IMG/VR virus record: IMGVR_UViG_3300042324_000640
Coordinates: 1 to 22,431 of that record
Direction: 5' to 3' (one strand)
Source: a virus
Length of the DNA: 22,431 nucleotides
Below the pieces are notes generated by a model. It was not told the origin of the DNA. It saw only the letters and a list, made by a program, of their open reading frames with translations, and made no database searches. Of the stretch, positions 1,780 through 22,431 are shown in pieces; positions within the stretch are counted from its first letter, which is position 1; each line of letters begins with the position of its first letter. The translations under genes were made by a program, and so were the position numbers.

Positions 1780-4700
1780 TTATGTATCAAAACGAACAAC
1801 AATATTGACCGGCCAATCAATTAAATTTTTTATAGGGCGACCAAGTTTGCCTACGGCAACAAGTTGGTTGTCTTGATATAGTCCGATTGTTGTAATATAT
1901 GGAGCAAGGAATGAACCTGTTGGGTCATATGATGAGCTATATTGATAGTTTAGAAATTCCGGAGTTACTTTAGAACGATCTACGCCGCAATATTGATTTA
2001 GATAAGCTTCAATATCTTTAACATATATCCGAGTTGATGCTGCTGTAATATAGTTGGATAGTTTTGTTGGATTTAACTTACCAAAGTAATATAACGAAAA
2101 GATATATCCATCGTTTAAATTGATAATGCCGTCGCCGTCAATGTCAAGTATTCCGGTATTAACTAGATTAGCTTCAATATAATCAAATGCTTTTTTGGTG
2201 AACGGATCAAATGAAGCACTCGCAAGATATGCAGCATAATCACTTTCTTGTTGAAGAACGTCGGTTGCTTCTGTTTGAAGAATGTCATTTGCCCACCAAC
2301 TATAATCTTCAAGAGTGTCTGGTTCTAACACAATGCCGTTTTCATCAAATACAAATTCAGCATAAAACTTTTTCATTTGTAGATAACGCATAACCAAATT
2401 AACATCTTTATAATCTACAACGCCGTCTTGATTTACGTCAAAGTAAAGAGGGTTTTGTACAAGCGATGATGGATTTGTACTATAGTTGAATTCACCCGGC
2501 CGAACTGATACTAGATGTTCATGTTCGTAAATTGTATGAGCACCTTGATAGTTCATTTCAAAACCTCTTGAACCTGTGCCCATGAATATGTTTTGGTAAT
2601 TTGAACCAGTGTTGGTAATAACAAAATATCCATTGTTGTAGAATATATTTCCAATCAACGGATTGGTTTCATATTTTCTCATGTTATAGATATATCCAGA
2701 ACCAGAGTATGAAGATGGAAACGAAGATGAAACTTGATTGTTCTCATCAATGATTTGGCTATATGAAGAAGGTGCGGCTATATTTACAATTGGAGCACCA
2801 ACGCACATATAATCAGAACCAAGAGAAATAGAATATCCATATATGTTGTATGGATTATTTTCTTCTTTGTTTCTTCTTAATTCGCCGGTGATATGCCAAG
2901 CATCAGAACTGTCGTCATAATTGTATATTGTAGCACGACCTAATACAGAATCGGCAGAACCACTTGATTCATAACTAAAGTTTTCAAGTATATAACTTCC
3001 AGATGAGTAATCTACAGCATTGGTCAGTTTATCTGGTAAAGATGTAACGGCTGCGGTAGATCCTTCAACAGATACAGCCCAACCAAATTTATTGTTTGTT
3101 TGGTATTTTCTATCACCAAAAGTTTTTGTCTTTAAGTCGTATTGAAAATCAATACATTCTTCGACATATCCATATTGATAAAAGTATGCAGCTCCAAGAA
3201 CAAGAGCACTGCCTGTATAAGCATAGTATGGCTTATAAGCTTTGTCATATTGACAACCAACAACAACATTCTTGCCGCTGGTAGATACAGAGTATCCAAA
3301 CTTGTCTGTGATGATTTCACTTGATACATCAACAGAATATTCTGGACCATTGATATTCAAGTCACCGGTAGTATTATCTTTTCTAAATATTTGAATTTGT
3401 TTCCAAGATGCCGTTGGGCAACTATTCATAGATGCTGAATAGTATGAGCAAGTAAACATTGTAGCATAGCCGGTGCCGTATTTGTTTGTACCAACGACCA
3501 ATCTATTTGCATCAACAGATACAGACCAGCCAAAATTATCACCAATTGCTTGGATACTAGAAGTCAATACAGTTTCATATGTCCAAGTATAATTTCCCGA
3601 AACAAATGTTGGAGTATAACTTTGTGTTACGATTAATGAACTTGTTGCTAATTCAGCACAAAAATCAGAAGCAAATACAACTTGCTGCCAACTTGACCCT
3701 GTTGGTATATCTAAACACGAACCAGAATCCATATATCTATGCTTTCTGAAAATATAAACAGCACCTTTGCTTCCACTATATGCCGGAGCACCAACTGCAA
3801 GAATATCATTGTCAATAGCAACAGAGTTTCCAAACTTGTCTCCATCACTTTCTCCCTTTAGCATGTTTATGATTCCCCAATTATCTGGACCGCCTTTGTT
3901 CTTGTCATATACACAAACATATCCGTTGTATAAATTGACTAAACATGCCGAGCCAGTTGGAGAGCCAGCAGCCAAGAAGTTGTCACGTAACGAAACTGAA
4001 TATCCAAATGAATCTTCAAAGTAAGAAGATGTGCCCGCTGCACTTTGAGTAAATGGAAAGTTTATTTTTGCTACTAAGCGATGAGCATCTTTCTTAGAAT
4101 CATGCTTGAATACAGAAACATAACCTGTGCGACGAGTTGAAAGACTGTTGGCATCCATAGATGAACCAACTGCTATATATGGTCCCCACGAACTAACAGA
4201 TTCACCAAAATGTTCATTGGTTGATTCAAAATAATCTCTACTAGTAGAATCATCCCATGCCCAAGAACCTGTTTCTGGCTCAACATATGTAACTGGAATA
4301 CCCATTGCCATATATTGTTTGGCGTTGGCTAAATTTACATATTGTATTTCACCGTTACTAAAAGTAACATAAAATTCTCCACTTGAGCTTACCCAATATG
4401 GGCGAGAAACAAGATTTCTGTATCCACCTATTCTTTGATTGCCCGGAAAATGAGAACCGGTCAAATATAAATTGGTATAACCATCGTCACGTATATCAAA
4501 AGTTTGATGAAGATTAGAATCGTCAATAATCTGTATAGTTTCAGGTATTACTTTTTCTCCCCAAACATTGTGCTTTAGGTTTGCTGTTATTATTCTATCA
4601 TGAATTTCACGAACTTCTTTCTTACCTGTAACTGGATCTTCTATATACTTTTCAACGCCAAACAAGCTTAATGGATCGCTGGCATTTCTATAAAACATAG

Positions 4701-4959
4701 CATCCGTAACGCTGTATATGTTTCTAGCATATTTACCCGAATGATTGATTGGTTCGCTTCCAGATACAAAGTAGATACTTTGACTTGGATAAAAGATTGT
4801 GTTTAGCTTCAAACCTTCGTTGATTTCAAGCTTTCCATTATAATAAGTACTATATCCATAAGCATCTAAACTTGACGAGTCAATGCTCTGTAGTGTCCAA
4901 TTCTTGAACGTTTTGAATGGCCTTACTGTGATATCTCCCGCAGAAAACTGCTTAATCAT
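1780..4959 (-). CDS. large virion appendage protein with FG-GAP propeller and dockerin-like module
   Basis: A 1059-aa structural protein. Residues 1-240 resemble the N-terminal half of the neighbouring 369-aa protein (MIKQF start; a segment ending IIDDS near 147). Seven FG-GAP-type repeats follow, starting at about 251, 318, 376, 476, 554, 625 and 707 (pattern FGxSVSxxxxxLxVGAP), as in integrin-type seven-bladed propellers. Residues 760-830 carry a phage module (IYEHEHLVSVRPGEFNYST). Two dockerin-like calcium loops, DVNQDGVVDYKDV (841) and DIDGDGIINLND (939), lie between this module and its C-terminal end (YITTIGLYQDNQLVAVGKL, 1021-1039), which is the same end found in the 369-aa protein. It probably projects from the baseplate and binds a receptor or particles. 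No catalytic site is visible. The TATTTATC motif lies 5 bases before the ATG and there is no Shine-Dalgarno. Confidence 0.85.
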   Translation of the reverse strand: MIKQFSAGDITVRPFKTFKNWTLQSIDSSSLDAYGYSTYYNGKLEINEGLKLNTIFYPSQSIYFVSGSEPINHSGKYARNIYSVTDAMFYRNASDPLSLFGVEKYIEDPVTGKKEVREIHDRIITANLKHNVWGEKVIPETIQIIDDSNLHQTFDIRDDGYTNLYLTGSHFPGNQRIGGYRNLVSRPYWVSSSGEFYVTFSNGEIQYVNLANAKQYMAMGIPVTYVEPETGSWAWDDSTSRDYFESTNEHFGESVSSWGPYIAVGSSMDANSLSTRRTGYVSVFKHDSKKDAHRLVAKINFPFTQSAAGTSSYFEDSFGYSVSLRDNFLAAGSPTGSACLVNLYNGYVCVYDKNKGGPDNWGIINMLKGESDGDKFGNSVAIDNDILAVGAPAYSGSKGAVYIFRKHRYMDSGSCLDIPTGSSWQQVVFASDFCAELATSSLIVTQSYTPTFVSGNYTWTYETVLTSSIQAIGDNFGWSVSVDANRLVVGTNKYGTGYATMFTCSYYSASMNSCPTASWKQIQIFRKDNTTGDLNINGPEYSVDVSSEIITDKFGYSVSTSGKNVVVGCQYDKAYKPYYAYTGSALVLGAAYFYQYGYVEECIDFQYDLKTKTFGDRKYQTNNKFGWAVSVEGSTAAVTSLPDKLTNAVDYSSGSYILENFSYESSGSADSVLGRATIYNYDDSSDAWHITGELRRNKEENNPYNIYGYSISLGSDYMCVGAPIVNIAAPSSYSQIIDENNQVSSSFPSSYSGSGYIYNMRKYETNPLIGNIFYNNGYFVITNTGSNYQNIFMGTGSRGFEMNYQGAHTIYEHEHLVSVRPGEFNYSTNPSSLVQNPLYFDVNQDGVVDYKDVNLVMRYLQMKKFYAEFVFDENGIVLEPDTLEDYSWWANDILQTEATDVLQQESDYAAYLASASFDPFTKKAFDYIEANLVNTGILDIDGDGIINLNDGYIFSLYYFGKLNPTKLSNYITAASTRIYVKDIEAYLNQYCGVDRSKVTPEFLNYQYSSSYDPTGSFLAPYITTIGLYQDNQLVAVGKLGRPIKNLIDWPVNIVVRFDT

Positions 4960-11448: not shown

Positions 11449-11666
11449 AACTGATTAAATGTAACGTTGTATTTTGTTTGAACCTTGATTGGATTATATA
11501 CCACATTTTGCAATGGTATAGTAATCGAGGATGAATACATTTCTCCTTGAACATTTTGGATAATCAAATTGGCATACGAATCTATATTCGGAATTATTGA
11601 CCCGCTGATATATAGCTTCTCAACATCTGTTTGTTTATACCCAGCCAAGTATGGATTTGCGTTCAT
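11445..11666 (-). CDS. small conserved virion-operon protein (73 aa)
   Basis: A 73-aa protein joined to both neighbours by ATGA overlaps (11663-11666 and 11445-11448), which strongly supports translation by coupling. The sequence MNANPYLAGYKQTDVEKLYI and the later IIQNVQGEMYSSSITIPLQN suggest a small beta-rich structural protein. It has no cysteine, membrane segment or catalytic motif. Lying between the DNRLRE protein and the gp7-like wedge protein, it may be a baseplate accessory. Function unknown. Confidence 0.75.
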   Translation of the reverse strand: MNANPYLAGYKQTDVEKLYISGSIIPNIDSYANLIIQNVQGEMYSSSITIPLQNVVYNPIKVQTKYNVTFNQL

Positions 11667-12997
11667 CTAGAAATTTTGAATGCGGTTGGAATTGAGTATG
11701 TCATTATAGAGCCACTTTGCTCTGAACGAATTTCTACTTTGTAGTATCTTTCTTGAGGAAGGCCGGTTGTGTCCAACATAAAATAGTTTCCGTATGAATC
11801 AAAACTCAATCTGGTATATTCGTCGTATGGTAATATAGACTCTTCGGTTTCGGCATCTTTGATAGAATAGAAACTTGAACTTGGTAAATAATATGGAGTC
11901 AAATAATCCGAAAGTTTGTTGGTAAATGTTTTTTGTGGATAACGCTTTCTTGAAGTTACATCCATTCTTAAGATAGAACCGTGCTTATATTCTTTAGCAA
12001 GATTCTTCATATCAACAACAGCATCTCTTAATTGAATTGGATCTGCGCTACCGGTTTCAATGATAGCATCTGCCCATGAAACATCAATATATGGAGAATA
12101 TATTGTATTGGTTTCTTTAGAGAAGAATCTCAATTTTCCATAATCAATAGAACTTGATTCGTCGCTGTGCAATACAATCAATCCATTATTTTTAATTCCA
12201 CTTGTTAGCCATGCTTCTACGATTGGAGTTACATCCATACGAACGTCGCTGGTTTGATAATCAAACGATTGAGTACAAGCATATCCACCCGTTACTGGTG
12301 ATATATAAGATGAAGTTGCTGGGGGAACATAAATGTCGCCGCAGTTTGGAAATGGATTGTATGGATTGTTGTATGGCGGTTGAGCGTATCCAGAACCAGA
12401 ACCTAATAGGCTTGATGAAACCCACCACACACCACCTCCGCTGCAATCTGTCAAAGAACCGCTCATCCATTTTTCAGAGAATCCATCGGCAAACTTCCAA
12501 TTTGCTCCATCAGACGCAGCTTGACCATCGTATTTGTATCCAGAACCCATTCCCCACGATTGAGAAATTGGATATGCCGCGAGTGTATATTTTACAGGAA
12601 CTTCTTTAGATTCACATGTTTTGAGAACAAGATAAAAACGAGGATTTACTATCTCGTTGCATACTATAGAAGCAGACACGTCGCTTAAATCAAATTGCAA
12701 CAATGCTCTAGACAATACAGCACCTTGAGTAACTTGACTGGTTTGAATATATGAACTTGATACAACTTTTGGATCGGTTGAGCCTGAATTAAAAGAGCCT
12801 GACATAGATCCACTCAAAAGTTCAATGCTTGAACTGGTAAATGAAATCAATGTAGAATATGTACTATTGCTTGAGCAGCTACCATAAGACACCCGTTTTT
12901 CAACTTCAAGAATTTCGTCCAAGCCCATGTTTTTGAACATGAACTCTGGCTCATTGCTAATGGTAGTATCTTTGGTTGGATATAAAAAGTAATGCAT
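11663..12997 (-). CDS. DNRLRE-domain-like virion protein (444 aa)
   Basis: The N-terminus MHYFLYPTKDTTISNEPEFM followed by NMGLDEILEV is familiar from aquatic myophage structural proteins. Residues about 96-308 follow the DNRLRE pattern: SRALLQFDLSDV, then YTLAAYPISQSW, DVTPIVEAWLTSG, GLIVLHSDESS and LRFFSKET with YSPYIDVSW. DNRLRE domains are beta-sandwiches found in cell-surface and carbohydrate-acting proteins. Cysteines are unusually many for a phage tail protein (at 41, 113, 128, 185, 219 and 240). The C-terminal 130 residues are a second beta-rich region. It heads an ATGA-coupled operon with the 73-aa and 1542-aa genes, behind TATATTTATA and an AAGGAA ribosome site. It is probably a baseplate-wedge or receptor-side protein. 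Confidence 0.8.
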   Translation of the reverse strand: MHYFLYPTKDTTISNEPEFMFKNMGLDEILEVEKRVSYGSCSSNSTYSTLISFTSSSIELLSGSMSGSFNSGSTDPKVVSSSYIQTSQVTQGAVLSRALLQFDLSDVSASIVCNEIVNPRFYLVLKTCESKEVPVKYTLAAYPISQSWGMGSGYKYDGQAASDGANWKFADGFSEKWMSGSLTDCSGGGVWWVSSSLLGSGSGYAQPPYNNPYNPFPNCGDIYVPPATSSYISPVTGGYACTQSFDYQTSDVRMDVTPIVEAWLTSGIKNNGLIVLHSDESSSIDYGKLRFFSKETNTIYSPYIDVSWADAIIETGSADPIQLRDAVVDMKNLAKEYKHGSILRMDVTSRKRYPQKTFTNKLSDYLTPYYLPSSSFYSIKDAETEESILPYDEYTRLSFDSYGNYFMLDTTGLPQERYYKVEIRSEQSGSIMTYSIPTAFKISR

Positions 12998-19706: not shown

Positions 19707-20420
19707 TTATTTGAGTGTTTTTGACTTTCTTGGTCCCCGTTTTATCCCCATCATTGATAGAGATTTTCTAAGTTTCCTTTCGTCTGTCCATTTTCCTTTC
19801 GGCCTACCGATGAGAGATTTTGATATTTTAATCTTAGATTCTTCACTTTGCCGAATGCCAATGTGTGATTTTGATAATTTATTACAATGTTCCGATGTAA
19901 GAGATTTATTGATTCTCTCCGCAGACATTCTCGCACGGGCTTCAACTGAAACATGGTCATTTTTAATTTTTTGGTTTGCTCTAGCAGTTCTTATTTTTTG
20001 TTTTGTTTCTTCCGTGTGTTTTTTACCAAGCATTGGTTTGTGGTCGAATATACCACCCGCGTTGCAATTGTATCCATTTTTAAAAGAATTTTTTTCTTTT
20101 ATCCAAAAAGTTTCTCTTTCATTTAGAATATCGCGGTCTAATTCGCAAAGTTCTAATATTATTTCTTCAAAATTTTCATATCCATATTTTAATATTGCGC
20201 GATATATTTTTGGTTGGCCTTCACATCGCAACCCCCTGTAATCAGAAAATCTGTTTTTTATTTCGTTGCATGTTTGCCCAACATACCATTTATTTGTAAT
20301 TTTATTTTTCAATCCGTATATCCCTATCTTTTTTTGTGTGATATCTTGTAAGATTATTGGCCCGTTCTTTGACGGCGTGTTTCCAATAACTTCGCATTCG
20401 TTGTTCGTTGTGTCTTTCAC
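19707..20420 (-). CDS. GIY-YIG homing endonuclease with NUMOD3 repeats
   Basis: A 237-aa free-standing homing endonuclease of the Seg type. The GIY-YIG domain spans about 32-125: GIYGLKNKITNKWYVGQT (33-50), the catalytic-Glu segment ERETFWIKE (101-109) and GYNCNAGG. NUMOD3 DNA-binding repeats follow (MLGKKHTEETKQKIRTARAN at 130, then SHIGIRQSEESKIKISKSLI with GRPKG). It nicks or cuts a cognate site and spreads its own gene. It sits between the small membrane protein gene and the late sigma gene, 5 bases from the latter, so it has invaded that junction. The listed start is GTG 20420 with AAGGAG upstream. However, another frame from ATG 20460 reads into this one at an A7 run (20329-20335), so the true N-terminus may be different. 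Confidence 0.87.
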   Translation of the reverse strand: MKDTTNNECEVIGNTPSKNGPIILQDITQKKIGIYGLKNKITNKWYVGQTCNEIKNRFSDYRGLRCEGQPKIYRAILKYGYENFEEIILELCELDRDILNERETFWIKEKNSFKNGYNCNAGGIFDHKPMLGKKHTEETKQKIRTARANQKIKNDHVSVEARARMSAERINKSLTSEHCNKLSKSHIGIRQSEESKIKISKSLIGRPKGKWTDERKLRKSLSMMGIKRGPRKSKTLK

Positions 20421-21630: not shown

Positions 21631-22431
21631 TTAAGTGCGAGACTTGCCGCTTGTGATTCCGTGTGGAACTCTTGGTGGCGGTGGAACTGGTGAAATAAAG
21701 TCACCTTTCACTTCCACCGGCGTAAATGAAACTGGTTCTGATGTTGGTTCGGATGTTGCCGTTGGAGTGAAAGTAGGTTCCGGAGTTTCTGTTGGAACCG
21801 GTGTAGAAGTTGGTTCAGGCGTTGGCGTGGAAGTTGGTTTTAAAGTTTCCATCAGAGCCGGTGTAAAAGTTGGTCGGGGAGTTGGAGTAGGAGTTGGTTC
21901 TGGAGTATCCGACTGTTTTAATGCCTCCGGTTTTTTATTTCCGCCAATTAGCATATTGAAAACAAGAATCAAACATATTGCCAACGGATCGAATACAATC
22001 ATGATCAACCATATAAAATAATTTACAGCATTATCCAATGGTATATTCAAGCTACTGGCTATGAACTTAAATGTTCCAACGTCCGTGTTAACAATTTTTT
22101 CTTTGGCTATATCATTTTGAACGTGCAATGTTTGTATAGTATTTTGGTCTTCAACTATCTTCTTCTTATTTTGCTCTATCAATTCTCCTTTTTTAACATT
22201 AAGTGCCGCAATCTTCTCGTCGCACTCTTTGTTGTATGCCGAAATAGAAATCATAGTATCTGCGTTTTCTTTTTCTAAATTTTTGATACTCGCTTCGGTT
22301 TCTCCTCTTTGAGATTTGGCACGACCTTCGATTGCAGCAACGCGATCATTATACTCCTTTACTTGCACAGCGTATCCAGTACGAAGTTTTTCTATTCTAT
22401 CTTGAGAATTTTTAATCTGGGCGTCGATATC
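21631..22431 (-). CDS. coiled-coil membrane protein with Pro/Thr-rich tail (start outside window)
   Basis: The frame is open to the right edge, with 266 residues visible. A GTG at 22368 is in frame, but 21 more sense codons precede it (DIDAQIKNSQDRIEKLRTGY), so it is probably internal. From the edge to about residue 118 the protein is a charged coiled coil (YNKECDEKIAALNVKKGELI). A membrane region follows at about 138-164 (YFIWLIMIVFDPLAICLILV), with the FDPLA motif that I recall from other phage membrane proteins. After this comes a 63-residue Pro/Thr/Glu repeat (TPEPTPTPTPRPTFTP and variants) and a Pro-rich end. It may span the host inner membrane with the rod-like tail extended, for example as a lysis or exclusion accessory; function unknown. 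Confidence 0.8.
   Translation of the reverse strand, partial: DIDAQIKNSQDRIEKLRTGYAVQVKEYNDRVAAIEGRAKSQRGETEASIKNLEKENADTMISISAYNKECDEKIAALNVKKGELIEQNKKKIVEDQNTIQTLHVQNDIAKEKIVNTDVGTFKFIASSLNIPLDNAVNYFIWLIMIVFDPLAICLILVFNMLIGGNKKPEALKQSDTPEPTPTPTPRPTFTPALMETLKPTSTPTPEPTSTPVPTETPEPTFTPTATSEPTSEPVSFTPVEVKGDFISPVPPPPRVPHGITSGKSRT
21721..21909 (-). repeat. Pro/Thr-coding degenerate repeat
   Basis: About 63 codons encode degenerate units of the type T-P-x-P-T, as in TPEPTPTPTPRPTFTP, KPTSTPTPEPTSTPVP and TETPEPTFTPTATSEPTSEP. The DNA repeat is imperfect and gives a long open plus-strand shadow frame. Such tails usually act as extended spacers. Confidence 0.7.

Follow-up and report, generated by a model that had tools for sequence, protein, structure and literature searches.

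A predicted dockerin-type calcium domain inserted in the propeller-bearing tail adhesins of uncultured phages

What might a pair of dockerin-like calcium loops be doing inside a tail protein of a phage? The window analysed here is a virus record of 22,431 bases in IMG/VR, and all features given for it below are on its minus strand. It encodes a propeller adhesin of 1059 residues (P0001, 1780-4959; FG-GAP_2 at E 7.8e-32, plus Dockerin_1) that carries such a module. Its gene lies in a run of tail genes including gp25-type and gp6-type baseplate wedge proteins, and this neighbourhood, together with homology, suggests that the adhesin is part of the virion. Similarity to the relatives in IMG/VR spans the full length of the protein. 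An N-terminal anchor region (residues 1-235, 4255-4959) is followed by the FG-GAP_2 beta-propeller region (residues about 236-765, 2665-4254), which Pfam FG-GAP_2 matches in six stretches; both boundaries are approximate. In the clade of the window a single gene encodes anchor and propeller-dockerin part as a fusion, while L085, L082, L143, L166, L149 and L175 have a separate gene for each. A C-terminal module, interrupted by the insert, completes the protein and recurs in a paralogue of 369 residues without insert (P0002, 5014-6123), whose structural model had a pLDDT of 81.6. Homology between the anchor and the N-terminus of this paralogue was unsupported (hhalign probability 0.1%); the N-termini being undetectably related, the part shown to be shared by the two proteins is the C-terminal module alone.

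Several neighbouring features and variants were recorded alongside. Three relatives of the adhesin (L091, L093 and L094) reach 3136-3150 residues with the dockerin at the C-terminus in all three, and in L094 the propeller is found near the N-terminus. A gene for 91 residues (1468-1743) directly downstream of the adhesin recurs in 37 loci. The 444-residue tail protein encoded at 11663-12997 looks, by eye only, like a beta-sandwich carbohydrate-binding protein of the DNRLRE type, with no match in Pfam. At 19707-20420 a probable GIY-YIG homing endonuclease, recognized by eye, is found among the phage genes, and the protein encoded at 21631-22431 has a proline-threonine-rich repeat tail (PTPTPEPTSTP).

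The loops themselves lie within positions 2086-2439 of the window, corresponding to residues 841-958. A first, sequence-only reading had described two canonical calcium loops 98 residues apart, and this spacing proved exact: loop 1, DVNQDGVVDYKD, covers residues 841-852 (2404-2439) and loop 2, DIDGDGIINLND, residues 939-950 (2110-2145). No other strict D.[DN].DG.[ILVFM][DN]..D motif occurs in the window's open reading frames of 100 residues or more. When the 1059-residue protein was shuffled 20,000 times, one strict motif appeared in 4 shuffles and two motifs in none, which rules out a chance origin of the two-loop motif. The ligands were counted in 63 non-redundant IMG/VR relatives. In loop 1, position 1 was D in 60, position 3 N or D in 55, position 5 D or N in 58, and position 12 D in 59 and N in the other 4; in loop 2, the corresponding counts were 62 (D), 63 (D or N) and 59 (D or N), with D in 62 and E in 1 at position 12. 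Throughout this set the duplicated loops show the ligands expected of a dockerin at positions 1, 3, 5, 9 and 12, with loop 1 degraded in three or four members. The first ligand of loop 1 is gone in L181, L183 and L190 (GVINT...), and it is present in L166, where loop 1 is otherwise degraded; loop 2 is retained in all four. Loop 2 is expanded in L070, the glycine at position 6 is relaxed in many relatives, and an R/K-Y motif recurs in the helix after each loop. Overall, the homologous phages retain the calcium ligands, whose loss would have spoken against a dockerin, the exception being the degraded loop 1 of three or four relatives. The degraded cases indicate that two calcium ions are not always needed, and the overall ligand pattern suggests that the two loops bind calcium.

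Profile searches, proposed in the sequence-only reading as a check, supported the dockerin assignment. Pfam Dockerin_1 scored 26.5 bits against the C-terminal region, above its gathering cutoff of 22.9, and 22.3 bits, just below that cutoff, on a scan of the whole protein. It matched all 42 aligned relatives at E values up to 1, the best being 6.6e-10. A profile of the relatives compared with the PDB returned dockerins first (E 2.2e-5) and calmodulin at E 0.18 or worse. A calmodulin-type EF-hand was rejected, EF-hand_1 scoring 15.4 bits against a cutoff of 25.4 and no helix entering loop 1.

Structure prediction gave the paired-helix dockerin fold that had been anticipated. The AlphaFold2 model, built from 42 sequences and covering the C-terminal 298 residues only (762-1059), was poor overall, with a mean pLDDT of 58; block means were about 86-92 for both F-hand regions and the middle helix, and the flanking module stayed mostly below 50. 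Helices were predicted at residues 850-861, 922-933 and 948-958 in protein numbering. F-hand 1 (loop 841-852 and the next helix, 2374-2439), core helix 2 (residues 922-933, 2161-2196; H161-172 in model numbering) and F-hand 2 (loop 939-950 and the next helix, 2080-2145) would accordingly form a three-helix core of the dockerin type, in which a loop precedes its helix and no E helix enters the first loop. Out of 61 structures compared with the model, six reached a Z of 2 or more, and all six were dockerins. The chains 5nrm_B (Z 4.8, rmsd 2.9, 66 of 66 residues) and 4dh2_D (Z 4.8, 70 of 70 residues) aligned completely once the linker of the phage domain was skipped; that these scores stay below 5 follows from the small size of the domain. 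A structure search of a viral library gave weak matches only, the best two being laminin-G phage proteins (E 0.04-0.07), and PHROGs had no family for the region. We take the feature to be a true dockerin-type calcium domain, predicted to comprise two loop-plus-helix F-hands and a middle helix.

The way in which this domain interrupts its host module could be read from the insert-free proteins. The first half of the C-terminal module, delimited by alignment to insert-free paralogues (residues 766-829, ending in EFNYSTNP, 2473-2664), has a mean pairwise identity of 72.5%. The insert follows (residues about 830-1016, 1912-2472), and the second half runs from TGSFLAPYITTIGLY to the end (1783-1911) and recurs at the very C-terminal end of about 100 tail proteins. 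From EFNYSTNP to YITTIGLY there are 199 residues in the adhesin and 38 in the 369-residue paralogue, so that the insert adds, net of the paralogue's loop, about 160 residues to a module that is nearly continuous in the paralogue, as had been estimated at the outset. Across all proteins with the C-terminal module this distance falls into two classes, 20-50 residues without and 170-222 with insert and none between; two extra rows at about 330 fit L096, a relative with an additional LysM domain, and its copy. The protein of L065/L108 belongs to those with the insert. A profile of the dockerin-bearing region aligned to insert-free paralogues on both flanks with the middle skipped, for example to L176 at profile columns 37-74 and then 259-297 (E 1.5e-11). 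In a profile-profile comparison with hhalign the last 39 columns alone were aligned to the paralogue (E 2.4e-11), and the upstream flank is thus less strongly supported. In the model of P0002 the insertion point falls in a loop of low confidence at about residues 290-325, between strands 272-289 and 329-337. We conclude that the C-terminal beta module took up the dockerin-like domain in an exposed loop at its surface.

Insert and propeller go together. FG-GAP_2 was found in 16 of 16 insert-bearing proteins tested and in 0 of 5 insert-free homologues, in which either laminin-G or no domain of known type was present; since insert-bearing queries had contributed part of the insert-bearing loci, absolute frequencies mean little. 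In a tree of the paralogue, the insert-bearing phages formed one group (SH-aLRT 96), for which a single gain is enough. The insert was thus probably gained once, in the ancestor of a clade of uncultured phages, and its association with the propeller may go back to a single ancestral event. No named phage was found to carry it: searches of 50,697 records, with three divergent members as queries, yielded insert-free homologues only. Our literature search found no paper describing phage tail fibres with a dockerin module. For an E. coli phage protein, structural resemblance only to a cellulosomal module has been described (PMC5967307), and elsewhere a blast resemblance only was reported (PMC3558961).

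Dockerins would call for a cohesin, and the sequence-only reading had accordingly offered two options, a plug-in site within the virion or attachment to cohesin-bearing surfaces of the host. The dockerin fold in a tail module was upheld, and the cohesin partner was not: Pfam cohesin was absent from the 17 IMG/VR records searched, among them records of 184 and 297 kb, and from Mel-JY01 and LR756508. The sole match in a phage was in Flavobacterium phage immuto, which lacks the insert, and concerned a secreted, host-type protein. This small cohesin-domain protein (QQO91933.1, L109:7692-8423) has a C-terminal part resembling a secretion-sorting domain and is encoded near a C-type lectin gene; the open reading frame preceding it ends with a dockerin-like start, GDVNGTGLN. 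A secreted cohesin-domain protein was also found in one Flavobacteriales MAG. Co-occurrence revealed nothing clear in the way of a gene tracking with the insert, the locus flanks being too short for most genes.

The fold, the conservation of the ligands, the insertion site, the restriction to one clade and the association with the propeller, all established by computation, are the ground on which a function can be proposed. The best reading, which we favour tentatively and as somewhat short of an even chance, is that at the base of the propeller adhesin the domain forms a calcium-locked joint with a structural or assembly role. The C-terminal module would probably attach the adhesin to the baseplate and the FG-GAP propeller would be the exposed head. 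Locked by two calcium ions, the dockerin-like domain would most likely be a rigid joint at the propeller base, packing against the propeller or a constant neighbouring tail subunit, and head and baseplate would assemble in a calcium-dependent manner. Both the partner and the function as a joint are our inference. Within the window's own clade, identity between relatives is 72% for F-hand 1, 61% for F-hand 2, 51% for the propeller and 72-81% for the C-terminal module; F-hands more conserved than the propeller suggest a constant partner, and a part contacting a receptor would, on a modest inference, be expected to vary more than they do.

The same conservation bears on the two docking options. 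If the domain docked a cohesin-like domain on another virion protein, as a plug in a socket, its well-conserved surface would be accounted for, and so would the relatives in which the propeller-dockerin protein is encoded apart from the anchor and must therefore attach non-covalently. However, no cohesin was present in any insert-bearing record searched and no gene was found to track with the insert, within the limits of the flanks, and we consider this arrangement unlikely. That the domain docks to proteins or scaffolds of the host surface that bear cohesins appears distinctly improbable. Some relatives infect or come from Bacteroidota, the context in which both secreted cohesin-domain proteins were seen, but a cohesin occurs in only 1 of 41 genomes of the MAG's family, which may not be that of the host, and F-hands more conserved than the propeller are the opposite of the usual receptor-binding pattern. 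Between these two options the intra-virion one would fit better, given this conservation and the insert's association with the propeller. Taken together as a calcium-switched plug-in joint of the cohesin-dockerin kind, linking tail proteins to one another or the phage to the host surface, by which adhesin heads would be mounted or exchanged non-covalently, docking is a doubtful reading.

The linker between the F-hands points to a further possibility, that the insert is a display platform whose calcium core holds a variable linker in contact with receptors or glycans. This expanded linker (residues 863-921, 2197-2373) is of low confidence in the model, and together with the helix before loop 2 it is the least conserved part. 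In L096 the two F-hands enclose a nested LysM domain (L096:16628-16759, residues 1812-1855 of a 2047-residue protein; E 2e-9). Against this, Trp888 is invariant and Trp889 near-invariant among relatives, the linker is no more variable than the propeller within the window's own clade, and the LysM occurs in one relative only, which makes a display platform rather improbable. Least probable is a passive insert, stabilised by calcium but without a partner and of little function: insert-free homologues do exist in related phages, but the insert is retained and its ligands are conserved across relatives down to about 33% identity. The calcium-locked joint is the reading we prefer. Dockerins are known as plugs of the cellulosome, and this fold, conserved in the tail adhesins of a large clade of uncultured phages, would be a new setting for them. 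It would provide a possible calcium-dependent joint in the virion and turns the docking partner of the adhesin into a directly testable question, while the nested LysM shows how adhesins may gain modules.

Several known systems can be set beside this adhesin. T4 gp8, a baseplate wedge protein, was the best match of the 369-residue paralogue on a second look, a weak one (Z 4.7 over 70 residues); it was absent among the plain Foldseek matches listed, none of which was significant, and no sequence similarity was found. The genes upstream of the paralogue are gp25 and gp6-like, and the fold of the module that takes up the insert found no firm counterpart. In Microcystis phage Mel-JY01 and Flavobacterium phage immuto the baseplate genes are homologous and tandem tail genes encode the same C-terminal module as here, but the dockerin insert and the propeller are both absent. 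In Mel-JY01, five tandem tail genes (L097:3468-12411) have different heads and this module at their end, and the last fibre has a laminin-G domain instead. With the integrin-alpha-like FG-GAP propeller proteins, all 16 insert-bearing proteins tested share FG-GAP_2 repeats, whereas the only strict calcium loops of the window's protein are in the dockerin and not in the propeller blades. Finally, cellulosomal type I dockerins (PF00404) likewise have two F-hand repeats with D-x-N/D-x-D/N...D ligands, R/K-Y helices and a three-helix core. Classical dockerins have their repeats about 30 residues apart, consistent with the 60-75-residue dockerin chains matched in the PDB. The phage version, for which no cohesin was found, differs in its place in a tail adhesin and in its spacing: instead of closely spaced repeats in a compact domain of about 60-70 residues, it has loops separated by 67-100 residues (228 in L096), owing to a linker that parts helix 1 from helix 2. 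The phage module is thus an expanded dockerin in a new setting.
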